Shown in pieces: positions 11,516 through 46,960 of a stretch of DNA of 64,000 bases. A program made the position numbers and the translations under genes. A model generated the notes under the pieces. It saw only the letters and a program-made list of their open reading frames with translations, was not told where the DNA came from and did no database searches. Source of the stretch: Succinispira mobilis DSM 6222. GTDB taxonomy: Bacteria > Bacillota > Negativicutes > Acidaminococcales > Succinispiraceae. The stretch lies in NCBI RefSeq assembly GCF_000384135.1, contig NZ_KB913028.1:616351-680350 (forward strand). The letters run 5' to 3'. Each line of letters opens with the position of its first letter. Position 1 is the first letter of the stretch.

Positions 11516-11658
11516 TTCTTATCAAGAGTGGTGGAGGGACTGGCCCGATGATACCCAGCAACCAGCTTTTAAAGCAAGGTGCTAATTCCAGCGGATAAAT
11601 CCGGAAGATAAGATTAATTGTTTTAATGACGGTTCTTCTTCGGGAAGAATCGTTTTTT
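11516..11658 (+). promoter_or_regulatory. SAM-I (S-box) riboswitch with terminator platform
   Basis: The aptamer core is clear: cttatcaagagtggtggagg at the 5' side, then actggcccgatgatacccag, caacc, aaggtgctaattcc and the closing gataag. A terminator hairpin (acggttcttctt/aagaatcgt, then T6) lies at about 11629-11658. SAM binding is expected to favour the terminator and shut off the downstream cystathionine gamma-synthase-like gene when methionine/SAM is plentiful. Confidence 0.96.
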
Positions 11659-18601: not shown

Positions 18602-18610
18602 CAGTACATT

Positions 18611-18705
18611 AATATAGGCGATGGAGTTCGCCATTAAGTCCGTTTTATAGCGGTGATGACTCCTACTAGTATTAAGTATTGTGCTAGTAGGAGTCATTTA
18701 TTATT
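18611..18705 (+). promoter_or_regulatory. fluoride (crcB-motif) riboswitch with terminator
   Basis: The aptamer reads taggcgatggagttcgcc, then a linker, then ccg...cgg and tgatgactcctac, which matches the crcB motif. A terminator stem (gactcctactag/ctagtaggagtc, about 18658-18694) overlaps its 3' side and is followed by T-rich sequence. Fluoride binding is expected to prevent termination and turn on the two downstream genes. Confidence 0.95.
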
Positions 18706-39815: not shown

Positions 39816-40994
39816 TTAGAGGGTAAAAGGTGAAGTAGAGGTGGATGCTTTGCTAGCCAAATTTGCTTCAGCAAAGCGATTGATTAATTTTTGGACTGCA
39901 ATTGTCGCCGAAAGTTGGCCGCTAATTACTTCATTTTCAATATTTTTTTTAATAGCAACTATTTCCGGTGAACGATAAAATAAATTGTGGAGATGCTCTT
40001 CGACCATAGTATAAACCCAAGATAGAGTTTGTTGTTTACGTCTTTCAGCAATAACTCCATTTTCACGGCCTTGTTGCATGAACTTGCCAATTACTTCTTG
40101 CCAAAGTTCAAAAATTCCCGCGCCAGTATAGGCCGAACAAGTATAAGCTTTAGTAACCCAATTTTCCGTAGCTGGACGAAGAAAATGCAAGATGCGCTCA
40201 TATTCCGTTCTTGTTACTTGTGCACGTTGCTTATTATCACCATCAGCCTTGTTAACAACAATCGCATCAGCCAATTCCATGACGCCTTTTTTCATGCCTT
40301 GGAGTTCATCGCCAGCACCAGTTAAGACAACCAAGAGAAAGAAATCTACCATTGAGCGGACAGTAGTTTCACTTTGACCAACGCCGACTGTTTCTACGAG
40401 AATAGTGTCATAACCAGCGGCTTCACATAAAAGCAAAGTTTCTCTGCTTTTACGCGTCAACCCACCTAAAGTACCACCAGAAGGAGAGGGACGAATAAAA
40501 GCGTTTTTTTCGCGCGTAAGCTGTTCCATGCGAGTTTTATCCCCGAGAATACTACCCTTGGTGACAGTACTAGAAGGATCGACAGCAAGTACCGCTACCC
40601 GATGTCCTTCATTGCAAAGCTTAGTTCCCAGGGCTTCGATAAATGTACTTTTACCAGCGCCAGGAACTCCAGTAATACCAATGCGCGTAGATTTGCCAGT
40701 ATAAGGCAAAAGTTTTTTTATTACCTGTTGAGCCATTTCAAAATGGGACGCAGCATTGCTTTCCACTAGCGTAATAGCTCGCGATAAAATCATACGATCG
40801 CCTTCTAAGACTCCTTCTACATAATCATCAACCTCTAGTTTACGGCGCTTGATAACAGGCGCGGTTTTTCTTAAGGGATCAATATCAATATTAGGCATTC
40901 CTTCATGGCCACCTTTGACGCCGTACATTACCCGGCACGCAAATTTGTCGTCGTCCTTCTCAGGTACCCAGTCGGGTTTATAAGTATCTGCCAT
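39816..40994 (-). CDS. meaB: MeaB, methylmalonyl-CoA mutase-associated G-protein chaperone
   Basis: GTPase of 392 aa that loads and protects adenosylcobalamin on the mutase. Visible marks are P-loop GITGVPGAGKSTFIEALG near residues 99-116, LAVDPSSTVTKGSILGDKTRM, the switch region RPSPSGGTLGGLTRKSRETLLLCEAAGYD, VETVGVGQSE and NKADGDN for base recognition. An extra N-terminal stretch of about 55 residues, charged and with one cysteine, precedes the usual start of the family domain. It is three bases downstream of mutB in the same operon. Confidence 0.94.
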   Translation of the reverse strand: MADTYKPDWVPEKDDDKFACRVMYGVKGGHEGMPNIDIDPLRKTAPVIKRRKLEVDDYVEGVLEGDRMILSRAITLVESNAASHFEMAQQVIKKLLPYTGKSTRIGITGVPGAGKSTFIEALGTKLCNEGHRVAVLAVDPSSTVTKGSILGDKTRMEQLTREKNAFIRPSPSGGTLGGLTRKSRETLLLCEAAGYDTILVETVGVGQSETTVRSMVDFFLLVVLTGAGDELQGMKKGVMELADAIVVNKADGDNKQRAQVTRTEYERILHFLRPATENWVTKAYTCSAYTGAGIFELWQEVIGKFMQQGRENGVIAERRKQQTLSWVYTMVEEHLHNLFYRSPEIVAIKKNIENEVISGQLSATIAVQKLINRFAEANLASKASTSTSPFTL

Positions 40995-40996
40995 AG

Positions 40997-43183
40997 CTAA
41001 TCAGCCAAACGTTTATTTAATTCATTGAGAACTTTTTTAGCACATACCGGGATGATTGTGCCAGGGCCAAATACGGCGGCAGCGCCATGTTGATAGAGAT
41101 AATCATAATCTTGAGCAGGAATTACGCCCCCGATTACAACCATAATATCTTCACGACCACGTTTTTTAAGTTCTTCAACTAATTGTGGCATCAAGGTTTT
41201 ATGACCAGCAGCAAGTGAGCTCATGCCCACGATGTGCACGTCATTATCTACTGCATCTTGAGCAGCTTCGTCTGGAGTTTGGAAAAGTGGACCGATATCA
41301 ACATCATAGCCCATGTCGGCAAAGGCTGTAGCAATTACTTTAGCGCCGCGGTCATGACCATCTTGTCCCATTTTAGCAATCATAATCCGTGGACGGCGGC
41401 CTTCGCGTTTTTCAAAATCATCAGTCATAGCCCGTACTTCTTTGATAACATCTTCATCGGCGAATTCGCTGCTATATACACCAGATATAGAACGAATAAT
41501 TGCTTTGTGACGACCACAAACTTTTTCGACCGCGTCAGAAATTTCACCTTTAGAGGCCCGAGCTCGAGCAGCTTCTACCGCCAAAGCTAATAAGTTGCCT
41601 TCGCCAGTTTCCATAGAATGAGTAATGGCATCTAAGCAATGACGAACTTTATCGTTATCACGATTAGCCCGTAATTTATTTAAACGTTCAATTTGGGCTA
41701 AACGTACCGCAGTATTATCAACTTCAAGAATATCTAGAGGATCTTCTTTTTCTAAGCGATAGTCATTTACGCCGACAATTTTCTCGCGTCCCGAATCGAT
41801 ATGTGCTTGACGACGTGCGGCAGCTTCTTCAATCCGCATTTTAGGGAGGCCAGTGTCGATAGCTTTAGACATCCCGCCCAATGCTTCAACCTCTTGAATA
41901 TGTGACCAAGCTTTGCGAATTAAAGAATTAGTTAGAGCTTCTACATAGTAAGAACCGCCCCAAGGATCGATAACTTTGCAAACTTTAGTCTCATCTTGAA
42001 TATACAATTGAGTATTACGCGCAATCCGTGCCGAAAAGTCAGTTGGCAAAGCAATTGCTTCATCTAGGGCATTAGTATGTAGAGATTGCGTATGACCTAA
42101 AGCTGCAGCCATAGCTTCAATACAAGTACGCGTAATGTTATTAAATGGATCTTGCTCAGTCAAACTCCAACCAGAGGTTTGTGAATGTGTCCGCAAGGCC
42201 ATAGATTTAGTGTTTTTAGGACCAAACGAGTTAACAATTTTAGCCCAAAGCATCCGTCCAGCTCGCATTTTAGCAATTTCCATAAAGTAGTTTTTACCCA
42301 TGGCCCAGAAAAATGATAGACGTGGTGCAAATTGGTCAATATTTAAGCCGTGATGAGTACCCGTGCGTAAATATTCTAGACCATCAGCCAAAGTATAACC
42401 AAGTTCGATATCCGCAGTAGCTCCAGCTTCTTGCATATGATAGCCTGAGATAGAAATACTGTTGAATTTAGGCATATAATTAGAGGTATAAGAGAAAATA
42501 TCACCGATAATACGCATGGAAGCAGAAGGTGGATAAATGTACGTATTCCGCACCATAAATTCTTTCAAAATATCATTTTGAATAGTACCAGCCATAACTT
42601 TTTTATCAACGCCTTGTTCTTCACCAGCTAAAATATAAAAAGCCATTACCGGTAAAACGGCACCATTCATGGTCATAGATACTGACATTTGATCCAAAGG
42701 AATCCCAGAAAAGAGAATTTCCATATCTAAAATGGAGTCAACCGCAACGCCAGCTTTACCAACATCGCCGACTACCCGGGGATGATCAGAGTCATAGCCA
42801 CGATGTGTAGCTAAGTCAAAGGCAATAGAAAGCCCTTTTTGACCAGCAGCAAGATTACGACGATAGAAAGCATTACTTTCTTCGGCAGTGGAAAACCCTG
42901 CGTATTGTCTTACTGTCCAAGGCCGAGTAACATACATAGTTGGGTAAGGGCCACGTAAAAATGGCGGTACCCCAGCCATATACATTAGATGTTTGCAGTC
43001 ATTGTAGGCACTTTGGTCATAAAGTGGTGCTACGTCGATTTGTTCCATAGTACGATAGAAGTTTTCGTCAAAAGATTTACCAGTTTCAGCTTTTAGTTGT
43101 TCCTTCCAAGCTTCTAAGTTCTGAGCAGTGCAGTCAGGCGCTTGTTTAAAGGGAATTTTACTAAAATCAGGAAATTGAGCCAT
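40997..43183 (-). CDS. mutB: methylmalonyl-CoA mutase large (catalytic) subunit
   Basis: 728 aa, B12-dependent interconversion of succinyl-CoA and methylmalonyl-CoA, the key step of succinate-propionate fermentation. The N-terminal TIM barrel includes [30 protein letters not shown] near residues 80-109 with the catalytic Tyr, and [20 protein letters not shown]. The C-terminal cobalamin-binding domain has [11 protein letters not shown] near residues 600-611 (DxHxxG with the cobalt-ligand His) and GMSSLAAGH. It starts one codon space after mutA. Confidence 0.96.
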
Positions 43184-45349
43184 TTAGAACATCCCCCTTT
43201 CTTTTTGCATTCTGACTAAGGTTTCATAGCAATTAGATCTAACACTAATATAATCATCCATGCCCGCAGCATCGCACAATTCTTTTAGTTCTTTGCTTGG
43301 TGCTCCAGCTAAAAATACTTTGATTTTAGAATTCGCAGCTTTTAATTTGCGAGTAAGTTCAGGTGCTAAATCTGGATAAGTAGCATCAGTAGAACAAATA
43401 ATTGTGGCATCAGCTTTAGAAGCTAAAACCGCTTGCACAGCTTCATCAACTGTTGGGAAGCCGTCATTGCCAATTACATCAAAAGCGGCAACTTGCATGA
43501 AAGAAGTTACAAATTCAGCCCGGGCTTTATGCTGCGGAATTGGACCCATGTTCGATAAGAAAATGGTGTAATTTTCCCCTGTTGTGGCTTTAAAAGTTTC
43601 AGTGCGTTTTCGCATTTCTTCGTAATTTTCCGTCCAACGATGTGCGGCAATTGCCTCAACCGTAGGTTGTTTATGATTAGAGCCAGTTAGCGCTTGGTTT
43701 AGTTCGCCCGCAGTTGCGCCAACGAGCATGGCTTTAATCGCTAAAGTAACTAAAGTACCTACTTCGCTAGCATCACAATCACTGATTTCTTTTAACAGGG
43801 CTTGGGCCATAGCATTATCACGATTTTTAGCATTAACTTCTAGACTAGTAATGCGTTGCGCTTTAAGTTCAGGATAATTAACTGGTTCGACAGTTAAAGG
43901 AACTTCGGTCATGTTAGGATACATGTTATTGCCAACCGCACGGTCACTACGCATTGCTAACTTTTTAAATCTATCAGCTAAAATACTAGTTAAATCTGAG
44001 TGAATTTTACTAGTTTGTAAAGCTTCTAAAATACCACCTTGAGCTTCCAGTTCTTGGAATTTAGCCCAAGCTTTTTCGGTTAATTGGTTAGTAAGTGGCT
44101 CTAAATACCAAGAACCGCCCGCAGGATCAATTGGTTGAATTAAATTGAACTCATGTTGCAACATTATTTGCACATTACGCGCAATACGACGCGAAAACTC
44201 ATCGCTAGGACGAATTACATGGTCAAAAGGTTTGATAAACATGCCATCTATGCCACCAATAACGGCAGAAAAAGATTGTGTTGCGGCACGTAACACATTT
44301 ACATAAGGATCATAGGCTGTTTGGCAGAAAGTCGAGGTGCTAACAAATAAGTCGATTTTCTCAGCCGCTTTGCTACCAGCAAAACTTTGTACGATTTGGC
44401 TCCAAATCATTTTTACGCTACGCAATTTAGCGATTTCCATAAAAAAGTTAGCGCCAATACTAAAGTGAAAACGTACATGTTTGCAAAATGCTTCAATGCT
44501 AATCCCGCGCAGTAGCATGGCTTTAATATAAGTTACCGCAGTGCTCATGGCATAACCAATTTCTTGCACGTCATTGCCACCCGCATTATGATAAACATCT
44601 GTATCAATAATTACAGTTTTTAAATTAGGGGCATGTTCTTCAGCCCAAGCAATGCTATGAGCCATTTCGTCATAGTATTCATCTAAAGAGCGCGCCAAAG
44701 TACCAGAACTAGCTAGTTCACCGATCGGATCGGCTGCTACAGCTCCAGTTAATTTATGTGTATCAAAACCTTGTTTTTCAGCAAAAGCAGCAATAGCTGC
44801 TAGCAAGGCAATATTCGAAGCCCCTGCATAAAGTGCTAAATCTTGTTGAACAAGGTTAATATCTTTTAAGATAACTTCTAAATCAGCTAAAGTAGAAACT
44901 GAAACTCCTTTATCGGCAAATTCAACATCTAAAGCCTCAGGAGCATCGATACCTTTGCGGCTAGCAGTATCTAGGACAAAACTAACAGCAGTAGTTCCTT
45001 TTAATAGCTCGCGTTTTAAAACAGCGTTTGCTTCTGCTAAACTTTTAGCATCACATTGTTGAGCAATGATCCAAGGTTTGCTAATATAGCCACTGGCATG
45101 CGCCCCACGAAGATTGCTAGCTTGTGCTGGATAAGTTTGCGGATGCGTGAGTTTTTCTAAATCTTCTGGGAGGTAAATTGGATTTAAAGTAATTCCCTCG
45201 TATGTTTTAGTAAACATACTTTTATCAAAATCAGCACCTTTGAGGGCAATAATTGCTTGCTCTTTCCATTGGTCATAGCAAGTAGCCTCAAATTCGTCAA
45301 AGTTGATTTCAGGAATTTCCGTGTTCTCAAGGTCTTTTACTTGTTCCAT
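43184..45349 (-). CDS. mutA: methylmalonyl-CoA mutase small subunit
   Basis: 721 aa non-catalytic partner of MutB. It retains the barrel (RGAHASGYISKPWIIAQQCDAKS, then VSTSTFCQTAYDPYVNVLRAATQ and DPAGGSWYLEPLTNQL) and a B12-domain fold, but the DxHxxG cobalt-binding motif is replaced (LSNMGPIPQHKARAEF), as expected for the small subunit. AAAGGAAGG precedes the ATG. It is the first gene of mutA-mutB-meaB; a cobalamin riboswitch lies about 400 bases upstream on the same strand. Confidence 0.96.
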   Translation of the reverse strand: MEQVKDLENTEIPEINFDEFEATCYDQWKEQAIIALKGADFDKSMFTKTYEGITLNPIYLPEDLEKLTHPQTYPAQASNLRGAHASGYISKPWIIAQQCDAKSLAEANAVLKRELLKGTTAVSFVLDTASRKGIDAPEALDVEFADKGVSVSTLADLEVILKDINLVQQDLALYAGASNIALLAAIAAFAEKQGFDTHKLTGAVAADPIGELASSGTLARSLDEYYDEMAHSIAWAEEHAPNLKTVIIDTDVYHNAGGNDVQEIGYAMSTAVTYIKAMLLRGISIEAFCKHVRFHFSIGANFFMEIAKLRSVKMIWSQIVQSFAGSKAAEKIDLFVSTSTFCQTAYDPYVNVLRAATQSFSAVIGGIDGMFIKPFDHVIRPSDEFSRRIARNVQIMLQHEFNLIQPIDPAGGSWYLEPLTNQLTEKAWAKFQELEAQGGILEALQTSKIHSDLTSILADRFKKLAMRSDRAVGNNMYPNMTEVPLTVEPVNYPELKAQRITSLEVNAKNRDNAMAQALLKEISDCDASEVGTLVTLAIKAMLVGATAGELNQALTGSNHKQPTVEAIAAHRWTENYEEMRKRTETFKATTGENYTIFLSNMGPIPQHKARAEFVTSFMQVAAFDVIGNDGFPTVDEAVQAVLASKADATIICSTDATYPDLAPELTRKLKAANSKIKVFLAGAPSKELKELCDAAGMDDYISVRSNCYETLVRMQKERGMF

Positions 45350-45600
45350 ATACGGTATCCTTCCTTTTAGTTATATATTTGCGGGGGAACGAATACTATT
45401 TTCTTGGTTTATTTAGCAGAGTGGTTCGAGTACCTCCTACCTAAACTGCCAATAAACGTCTCAAAGTATTAGACACGTTTTAAACGTGCTGTAATATTGC
45501 TTGGCGCACCCTTGCGCCAAATTCAAGGAGAAAGAAAATAATAAAGATGGTGTTAAGGTAAAAGAATGGTGTATGCTGGAGCTAAGTTAAAATACCCTGT
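45350..45600 (-). promoter_or_regulatory. long mutA leader with two hairpins
   Basis: Between the riboswitch terminator and the mutA start are about 270 bases without a gene. On the minus strand a strong stem TTGGCGCAAGGGTGCGCCAA (about 45502-45525) and GCACGTTTAAAACGTGT (about 45471-45490) are visible, then TAGGTAGGAGGTACTCG. The function is unknown; it may be mRNA-stability elements or a second regulatory RNA. Confidence 0.45.
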
Positions 45601-45623
45601 GGCCCTAACTTAAAAAACGCAGA

Positions 45624-45652
45624 AAACCGCCTTTCTTAAAGAAAGACGGTTT
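45624..45652 (-). terminator. terminator of the cobalamin riboswitch transcript
   Basis: AAACCGTCTTTCTT and a near-complement (GAAAGGCGGTTT) form a stem followed on the minus strand by TTTTCTGCGTTTTTT. It sits between aptamer and mutA and so looks like the expression platform. Confidence 0.75.
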
Positions 45653-45744
45653 AAAATGTCAGTAAAAGATTCGCAATAAATATCCAAGCTGAAAAGAACA
45701 TTATGGAATAAATTCTCGCGACATCTCCTCCCCGTCTCTCGCAG

Positions 45745-45916
45745 GTCAAACAGTGATGCTAGATACAGGCAGTTCTTCTGACTTAGATTCATAGCTTGTT
45801 TCGCCTTCCCAGTAAAAACCAGTGGCAATGTGAAACGCGCTCCTCATTACAGCGGCGGGACCGTGTTGGAATTACACCAACTTCCCTATTAAGCTCCGTT
45901 AGGAGCACCTGTACAA
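45745..45916 (-). promoter_or_regulatory. cobalamin (B12) riboswitch
   Basis: Read on the minus strand: AGGTGCTCC...GGAGCTTAATAGGGAAG, TTGGTGTAATTCCAACACGG, TCCCGCCGCTGTAA, the variable arm, GCCACTGG...ACTGGGAAGGCG, and the B12 box AGTCAGAAGAACTGCCTG. All core segments are in order. It faces mutA and is followed by a terminator, so mutAB-meaB is the only gene set it could control directly. Confidence 0.95.
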
Positions 45917-46171
45917 CAATATATTAACTTATGGTTCTTAATTCTAAATCTTCTTTTTGTGATTGTCAAGCAGAAAAAACAAAAAATAATAAAAAAAATA
46001 TTGACTCTACCATAAGTATATCCTTTAAGCTTTAGCAAAGTTAGGAGCTTAGAAATTTGTAATAATAGAAAAAATATGTATAAAATAAACTTAAAAAGAA
46101 TAAAAAAACAAACGACAAGGAATACAAATACAATATTCAATGATAAAAAACACCTGAAAGGAGGATATTTA

Positions 46172-46960
46172 ATGAAAATAGCCTTGTTACATTTTTCCTT
46201 GGTAGCAGGACCATTAGAGAAAAATTTGCAAAAACTGTGTTGGGGGATAGAAACTGCAGCTGAAAATGGCGCTAAATGGATAATAACTCCAGAAATGGCT
46301 CTACAAGGATATTATATGAATTGTATCGCGGGCAATTATCAACCAGTAAGCGAAAATTCCTCAGAATTAGAACCGTTAAAGGCGCTGGCCAAAAAATATC
46401 AATTGACTATTTTTCTTGGTTGTGCAGAATTAACAGCTAAACAGGCCTATAATGCCTGTTTAGTGATAGATGCTAGCGGAGAAATAGTAGCTCGACATTA
46501 TAAAATTCGTACTTTAAATTGGATAACTGAAGCCTGGTCGACTCCTGGCGATAGCTTAGAAGTAGTAGAAATAGCGGGAGTTCGTGTAGGCTTATTAGTT
46601 TGTGCTGATGCTTGGTTTGCTGAAAATGCAGCGGTATTAACGCAAAAAGCGGCGCAACTGATAGTCGTTGTGGCCGCGTGGCCACCAGGGTGTGGCGGCC
46701 CACCAGAGGCAGCTTGGAAAAGATGCTCACAAGCTGCCTCTAATATTCCCGTTATAGTGTGTAATCAAACAGGCAGAACAGAAAAATTAGATTTGACAAT
46801 TGCACAAAGTGCAGTTGTAGTGGCTGATAAAATTATAACGGCTTATCAAGGTGTAGCAGAAAAAATTTTATACGCGCAGTTACCAGCTGATCTGACTGAT
46901 CCTAGTAAGTGGCAGACAGTAAATTTTGAATTAGCTCCAGGTAATTGTAACTTGCTTTAA
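46172..46960 (+). CDS. nitrilase-superfamily carbon-nitrogen hydrolase
   Basis: 262 aa cytoplasmic amidase or nitrilase. The frame opens at 46076, but the ATG at 46172 has aaaggagg at ideal spacing and starts the usual MKIALLHFSLV strand. The catalytic triad is visible: Glu in WIITPEMALQGYY, Lys in HYKIRTLNW and Cys in VGLLVCADAWF. The substrate is unknown. It is upstream of the cobN-like gene on the same strand with a 140-base gap, which hints at but does not prove a cobamide-related amide hydrolysis. Confidence 0.87.
   Translation: MKIALLHFSLVAGPLEKNLQKLCWGIETAAENGAKWIITPEMALQGYYMNCIAGNYQPVSENSSELEPLKALAKKYQLTIFLGCAELTAKQAYNACLVIDASGEIVARHYKIRTLNWITEAWSTPGDSLEVVEIAGVRVGLLVCADAWFAENAAVLTQKAAQLIVVVAAWPPGCGGPPEAAWKRCSQAASNIPVIVCNQTGRTEKLDLTIAQSAVVVADKIITAYQGVAEKILYAQLPADLTDPSKWQTVNFELAPGNCNLL

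Follow-up and report, generated by a model that had tools for sequence, protein, structure and literature searches.

We asked why a cobalamin riboswitch should stand before an operon whose enzyme itself uses B12, an arrangement found in the window, which is the whole stretch of 64,000 nucleotides of Succinispira mobilis DSM 6222 analysed here. The operon lies on the minus strand and consists of mutA (methylmalonyl-CoA mutase (MCM) small subunit, 721 aa; 43184..45349), mutB (large B12-binding subunit, 728 aa; 40997..43183), and meaB (MCM-associated GTPase, 392 aa; 39816..40994). These identities come from NCBIfam profiles and bear out the B12-using mutase operon named in a preliminary description of the locus; the best match of MutA (TIGR00642, E 1.3e-115) is below the curated cut-off, and those of MutB (NF006944, E 0) and MeaB (NF006958) are above it. 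Overall, our data suggest, with a probability of roughly 0.7, that this riboswitch is a cobalamin OFF switch acting by transcription termination on an auxiliary MCM and that MutAB is probably the isozyme for scarce B12.

The aptamer (45751..45927, minus strand) is a full-length match to the Rfam model RF00174, with 109.5 bits against a gathering score of 31.5 (E 1.6e-26 for the window). The preliminary description had recognised this riboswitch correctly and set the limit of its feature at 45916, which trims about 11 nt from the aptamer. A sigma-70-like promoter, TTGACA-17-TAGAAT (45941..45969, minus strand; 11 of 12 consensus positions), ends 13 nt 5' of the aptamer, and comparable promoters are found 5' of the aptamer in several relatives. 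Downstream of the aptamer, an intrinsic terminator, AAACCGTCTTTCTT-TAAGAAAGGCGGTTT (45624..45652, minus strand), has 13 pairs and then a T-rich tail, and it is the only terminator found in 45300-46250. A separate mutA promoter between 45600 and 45350 had been named as the observation that would speak against control by the riboswitch; we found no promoter-like site on the minus strand of that interval. From the known fold of cobalamin riboswitches, loops L5 and L13 are expected to engage in a kissing pairing. By its position in the sequence, UCCCG (45856..45860, minus strand) is L5, the predicted kissing partner of L13, and the L13 region is GAGAGACGGGG (45730..45740, minus strand); UCCCG and the CGGGG of L13 are complementary with one wobble, which makes the kissing loop possible. 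The first nine bases of the L13 region may instead act as the 5' arm of an antiterminator, the 3' arm of which, CCGUCUUUC (45641..45649, minus strand), lies within the 5' arm of the terminator.

Folded by default, a nascent transcript reaching as far as the 3' arm of the terminator is predicted to adopt the antiterminator, in which GAGAGACGG is paired with CCGUCUUUC (-32.5 kcal/mol); with L13 excluded from base pairing, the predicted structure is the terminator. At full length the two structures differ little in energy, at -41.1 kcal/mol with the antiterminator versus -43.0 kcal/mol with the terminator, a gap of only 1.9 kcal/mol. The switch in the window has an intrinsic terminator and an antiterminator that excludes the ligand-bound fold, and by these predictions its layout is the usual one for a transcriptional OFF switch. 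Among relatives, GAGAGACGG or an AGACGG arm is complementary to the terminator in L094-L098, and the best terminator complement begins just after L13 in the leaders of genus g12. We propose that when adenosylcobalamin is scarce the L13 sequence would pair with the 5' arm of the terminator, the antiterminator would form, and mutA-mutB-meaB would be transcribed. When adenosylcobalamin is plentiful, the bound aptamer would hold L13 in its kissing interaction with L5, the terminator would form, and the operon would be off. The cell would then depend on a second, riboswitch-free MCM set in its succinate-to-propionate operon.

The preliminary description had also offered the opposite direction, an ON switch in which B12 binding would promote read-through and so restrict the enzyme to conditions in which its cofactor is available. 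Such a switch appeals to metabolic intuition only, apart from a modest rise of mutAB with B12 in Xylanibacter, where no riboswitch lies nearby (PMC11575231). The fold competition yields OFF, however, and the V. parvula mutA riboswitch represses GFP with several corrinoids in B. subtilis (PMC9600662). Furthermore, the expression platform in the window is like those before the uptake and synthesis genes of this genome. The genome (2.09 Mb, one contig) has 12 cobalamin riboswitch matches, 11 of them above the Rfam cut-off; a hairpin and T-run follow most of the others, and several precede uptake or synthesis genes (cbiK, cobT, and a BtuB-like receptor). We consider the ON direction very improbable and rejected it on the fold competition and the Veillonella reporter. 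For the platform, where the preliminary description had named both termination and read-through, the predicted outcome with B12 is termination. In this organism, plentiful B12 most likely turns the genes off.

Other riboswitches were seen in the same genome. The window holds a SAM riboswitch (11516-11614) and a fluoride riboswitch (18608-18672), both on the plus strand and above the Rfam cut-off. At about 316.9 kb (L004, G000:C1), a cobalamin riboswitch lies 319 nt upstream of a gene that encodes a GTPase-like motif, an unusual target; the first 130 residues of this gene gave no NCBIfam match.

The placement of a cobalamin riboswitch before mutA is common in Negativicutes and is real and ordinary in kind. 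The preliminary description had pointed to a like placement before mutA in propionibacteria; the precedent that we found is in Veillonella. We found a cobalamin riboswitch 5' of mutA in 46 of the 60 mutA loci scanned, one of which has two in tandem. Loci without a riboswitch are partly cut by contig ends and partly belong to distant groups such as Bacillaceae and Chloroflexota. The tandem riboswitches (L079) lie at 1376-1550 and 2032-2202, about 480 nt apart.

We found the second MCM set of this genome, which is complete, near 1.89 Mb in a propionate operon comprising succinate CoA-transferase, MCM alpha (555 aa), a B12 subunit (129 aa), MeaB, epimerase, and mmdA (decarboxylase). No Rfam family, riboswitches included, was found at this operon or at 19 other core-MCM loci. 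Full-length core MCM, 76-85% identical to that of this genome, is also present in 15 of 17 genomes with a riboswitch before mutA, which were reached via named loci (Veillonella, Selenomonas, Dialister, Pelosinus, Phascolarctobacterium, and others); of the remaining two, one has core MCM in two pieces and the other, a MAG assembly, has none. An OFF switch on a B12-using enzyme need not be a paradox, since the switched operon is the second of two isozymes, and the presence of the unswitched set suggests that MutAB is probably the low-B12 isozyme. The paradox that the preliminary description saw in repressing B12-dependent genes is thus weakened. The same OFF direction would be expected from homeostatic compensation, whereby scarce B12 calls for more apo-mutase to give enough holoenzyme and plentiful B12 calls for less, limiting the drain on B12, with no need for a division between isozymes. 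Co-regulation of MeaB, whose family serves in cofactor loading and protection, also fits such compensation. However, the riboswitch-free second MCM is nearly always present, and in relatives the read-through leader bears a putative antisense to it, described below, which points to isozyme switching. We regard homeostatic compensation as rather unlikely compared with a low-B12 isozyme.

A stretch of 275 nt separates the terminator from the mutA start (45349), in agreement with the long extra leader of some 270 bases noted earlier. This post-terminator leader (45350..45623, minus strand) folds more stably than shuffles (z = -2.0), and a search for a second Rfam family in it gave chance-level matches only. 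A conserved hairpin, GGCAG..GGUAGGAGGUACUCGAACC..CUGC (45416..45450, minus strand), occurs once per genome in 5 genomes and always within the mutA leader; its stem is invariant and so allows no covariation test. The further hairpins mentioned in the preliminary description are partly conserved, and a probable antisense role of this part of the leader in relatives was unsuspected there.

In relatives in the order, an element sits at the same place as the post-terminator leader, a hairpin with the loop CUGGACA followed by a stretch like GCCAUUCUCAAAUUUUCCUU. The stem of this hairpin covaries, with 90% of cells paired versus 57% when shuffled and five of six pairs changing on both sides. R1, a model of the element, matched 5' of mutA and on the mutA strand in 23 of the 25 mutA-bearing genomes sampled from the order, and nowhere else in the sample at E < 1e-4. 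By sequence the element can pair with the core MCM start, AAGGAGGAUUUGAGAAUGGC, and with a GUCCA hairpin loop in the core MCM leader, which explains why many weaker R1 matches fall on the opposite strand immediately upstream of core MCM. The complementarity extends for about 20-30 nt over the second mutase's ribosome-binding site and start codon. Predicted within-genome duplexes have energies of -33 to -48 kcal/mol, with z scores of -2.7 to -8.1 versus shuffled leaders, from a program that disregards structure inside each RNA; widening the target region made such a test too noisy to be informative. Leader and target also covary, such that UUUCAGAAUGG goes with AUUCUGAAA and UUUUAGAAUGG with UUCUAAAG, the codon change GCAUUU/GCAAAU in core MCM is tracked by the leader, and five columns change on both sides. 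When leaders were swapped among eight representative genomes, 12 of 40,320 reassignments paired equally well, a fraction that is not a strict probability as the genomes are related. In several of these leaders the element is followed by a second terminator. The complementarity to the core MCM start is thus significant and covarying in relatives in the order, and is most simply read as a probable antisense RNA that the riboswitch controls and that targets the competing isozyme.

We lean towards a model for Acidaminococcales in which low B12 would lead to MutAB being made while the same transcript, as a trans antisense, blocks translation of core MCM, and high B12 would reverse both; the genome of the window would keep the switch without the antisense. 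The block of core MCM would proceed via kissing of the CUGGACA and GUCCA hairpin loops and via a duplex of 20-30 nt over the ribosome-binding site and start codon. Selenomonas-type leaders (L024, L030, and L062) share AAACAUUGCUCAU, which could pair with AUGAGCAAUG at the start of core MCM, with duplex z of -2.4 and -2.8 in two genomes; this is no more than suggestive of an independent antisense. The Veillonella leaders tested gave no significant antisense.

Several variations on these leaders were seen. In one genus (L103, L110, L111, L112, L113, and L115), the cobalamin riboswitch and mutA are separated by a small gene that was called MsrA-like by eye. The CUGGACA motif occurs again between the MsrA-like gene and mutA in L103, and R1 has second copies in three more genomes. 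The core MCM leaders of L146, L147, L149, L150, and L180 keep the hairpin with the GUCC(A/G) loop in genomes that gave no mutA match; another partner may exist for them.

We also considered whether the leader in the window targets the core MCM mRNA in trans via a diverged antisense. A possible 8-nt vestige, CCAUUCUU (45562..45569, minus strand), lies at the aligned place and matches AAGAAUGG by complementarity at the start of core MCM in the same genome, which is not significant alone, and the predicted duplex has weak collinear blocks. The energy of this duplex, however, is no different from that of shuffled leaders (-26.0 versus -22.0, p = 0.11), 10 of 19 positions pair, and the pairing is not specific to its own target in the cross-genome table. 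Moreover, the leader lacks the CUGGACA hairpin and a second terminator, and the core MCM leader of this genome lacks the GUCCA loop. R1 gave no significant match on the leader, and BLAST of the leader against its own genome returned short matches only, with no convincing gene-start target among those examined. We rejected the antisense element in this leader on the R1 result and the duplex p value, and we find it improbable that the leader acts in trans. As judged from sequence comparison, the antisense element in the genome of the window is absent or worn down, and only the plain OFF switch is supported; genome G046 is likewise without the element.

Two points go beyond the known kind of system: the explanation by isozymes and, in relatives, the probable antisense. 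The first accounts, in a way that can be tested, for a B12 OFF switch on a B12-dependent enzyme, in that two isozymes exist and the switch controls one of them. The second would be new as far as the searched literature shows, with most subscription journals outside that search. If the antisense is real, one metabolite switch would control an operon in cis and the mRNA of a competing isozyme through the same transcript, and a single riboswitch would toggle two B12-dependent isozymes in relatives. Many of these bacteria convert succinate to propionate in the gut and rumen, where B12 supply would decide the working mutase.

The antisense RNA of Listeria monocytogenes is cis-encoded against pocR. 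Similar to our proposal for the relatives, a B12 riboswitch controls this antisense RNA (cited in PMC11575231). The Listeria antisense acts on propanediol genes, whereas that of the relatives would be a leader acting in trans on the mRNA of a paralogous enzyme, a role unsupported in the genome of the window. Also close to the switch in the window is the V. parvula mutA switch, likewise a cobalamin riboswitch before mutA in a Negativicute; a cobalamin riboswitch before an MCM gene has been described in Veillonella (PMC7160235), and the V. parvula switch is in use as a model promiscuous switch (PMC9600662). Two MCM types, a heterotetramer and a heterodimer, occur in V. parvula, with activity reported for the heterodimer (PMC6759758). 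V. parvula belongs to a different order, and its switch was shown by reporter to repress, whereas that of the window is predicted to do so from sequence and folding. Cobalamin OFF switches on metE or other B12-independent isozymes, such as Priestia megaterium metE (PMC9600662), resemble the window in that a B12 OFF switch acts on one of two alternative enzymes of a single reaction. In metE-type systems, however, the repressed isozyme is B12-independent, while in the window's genome both isozymes need B12.
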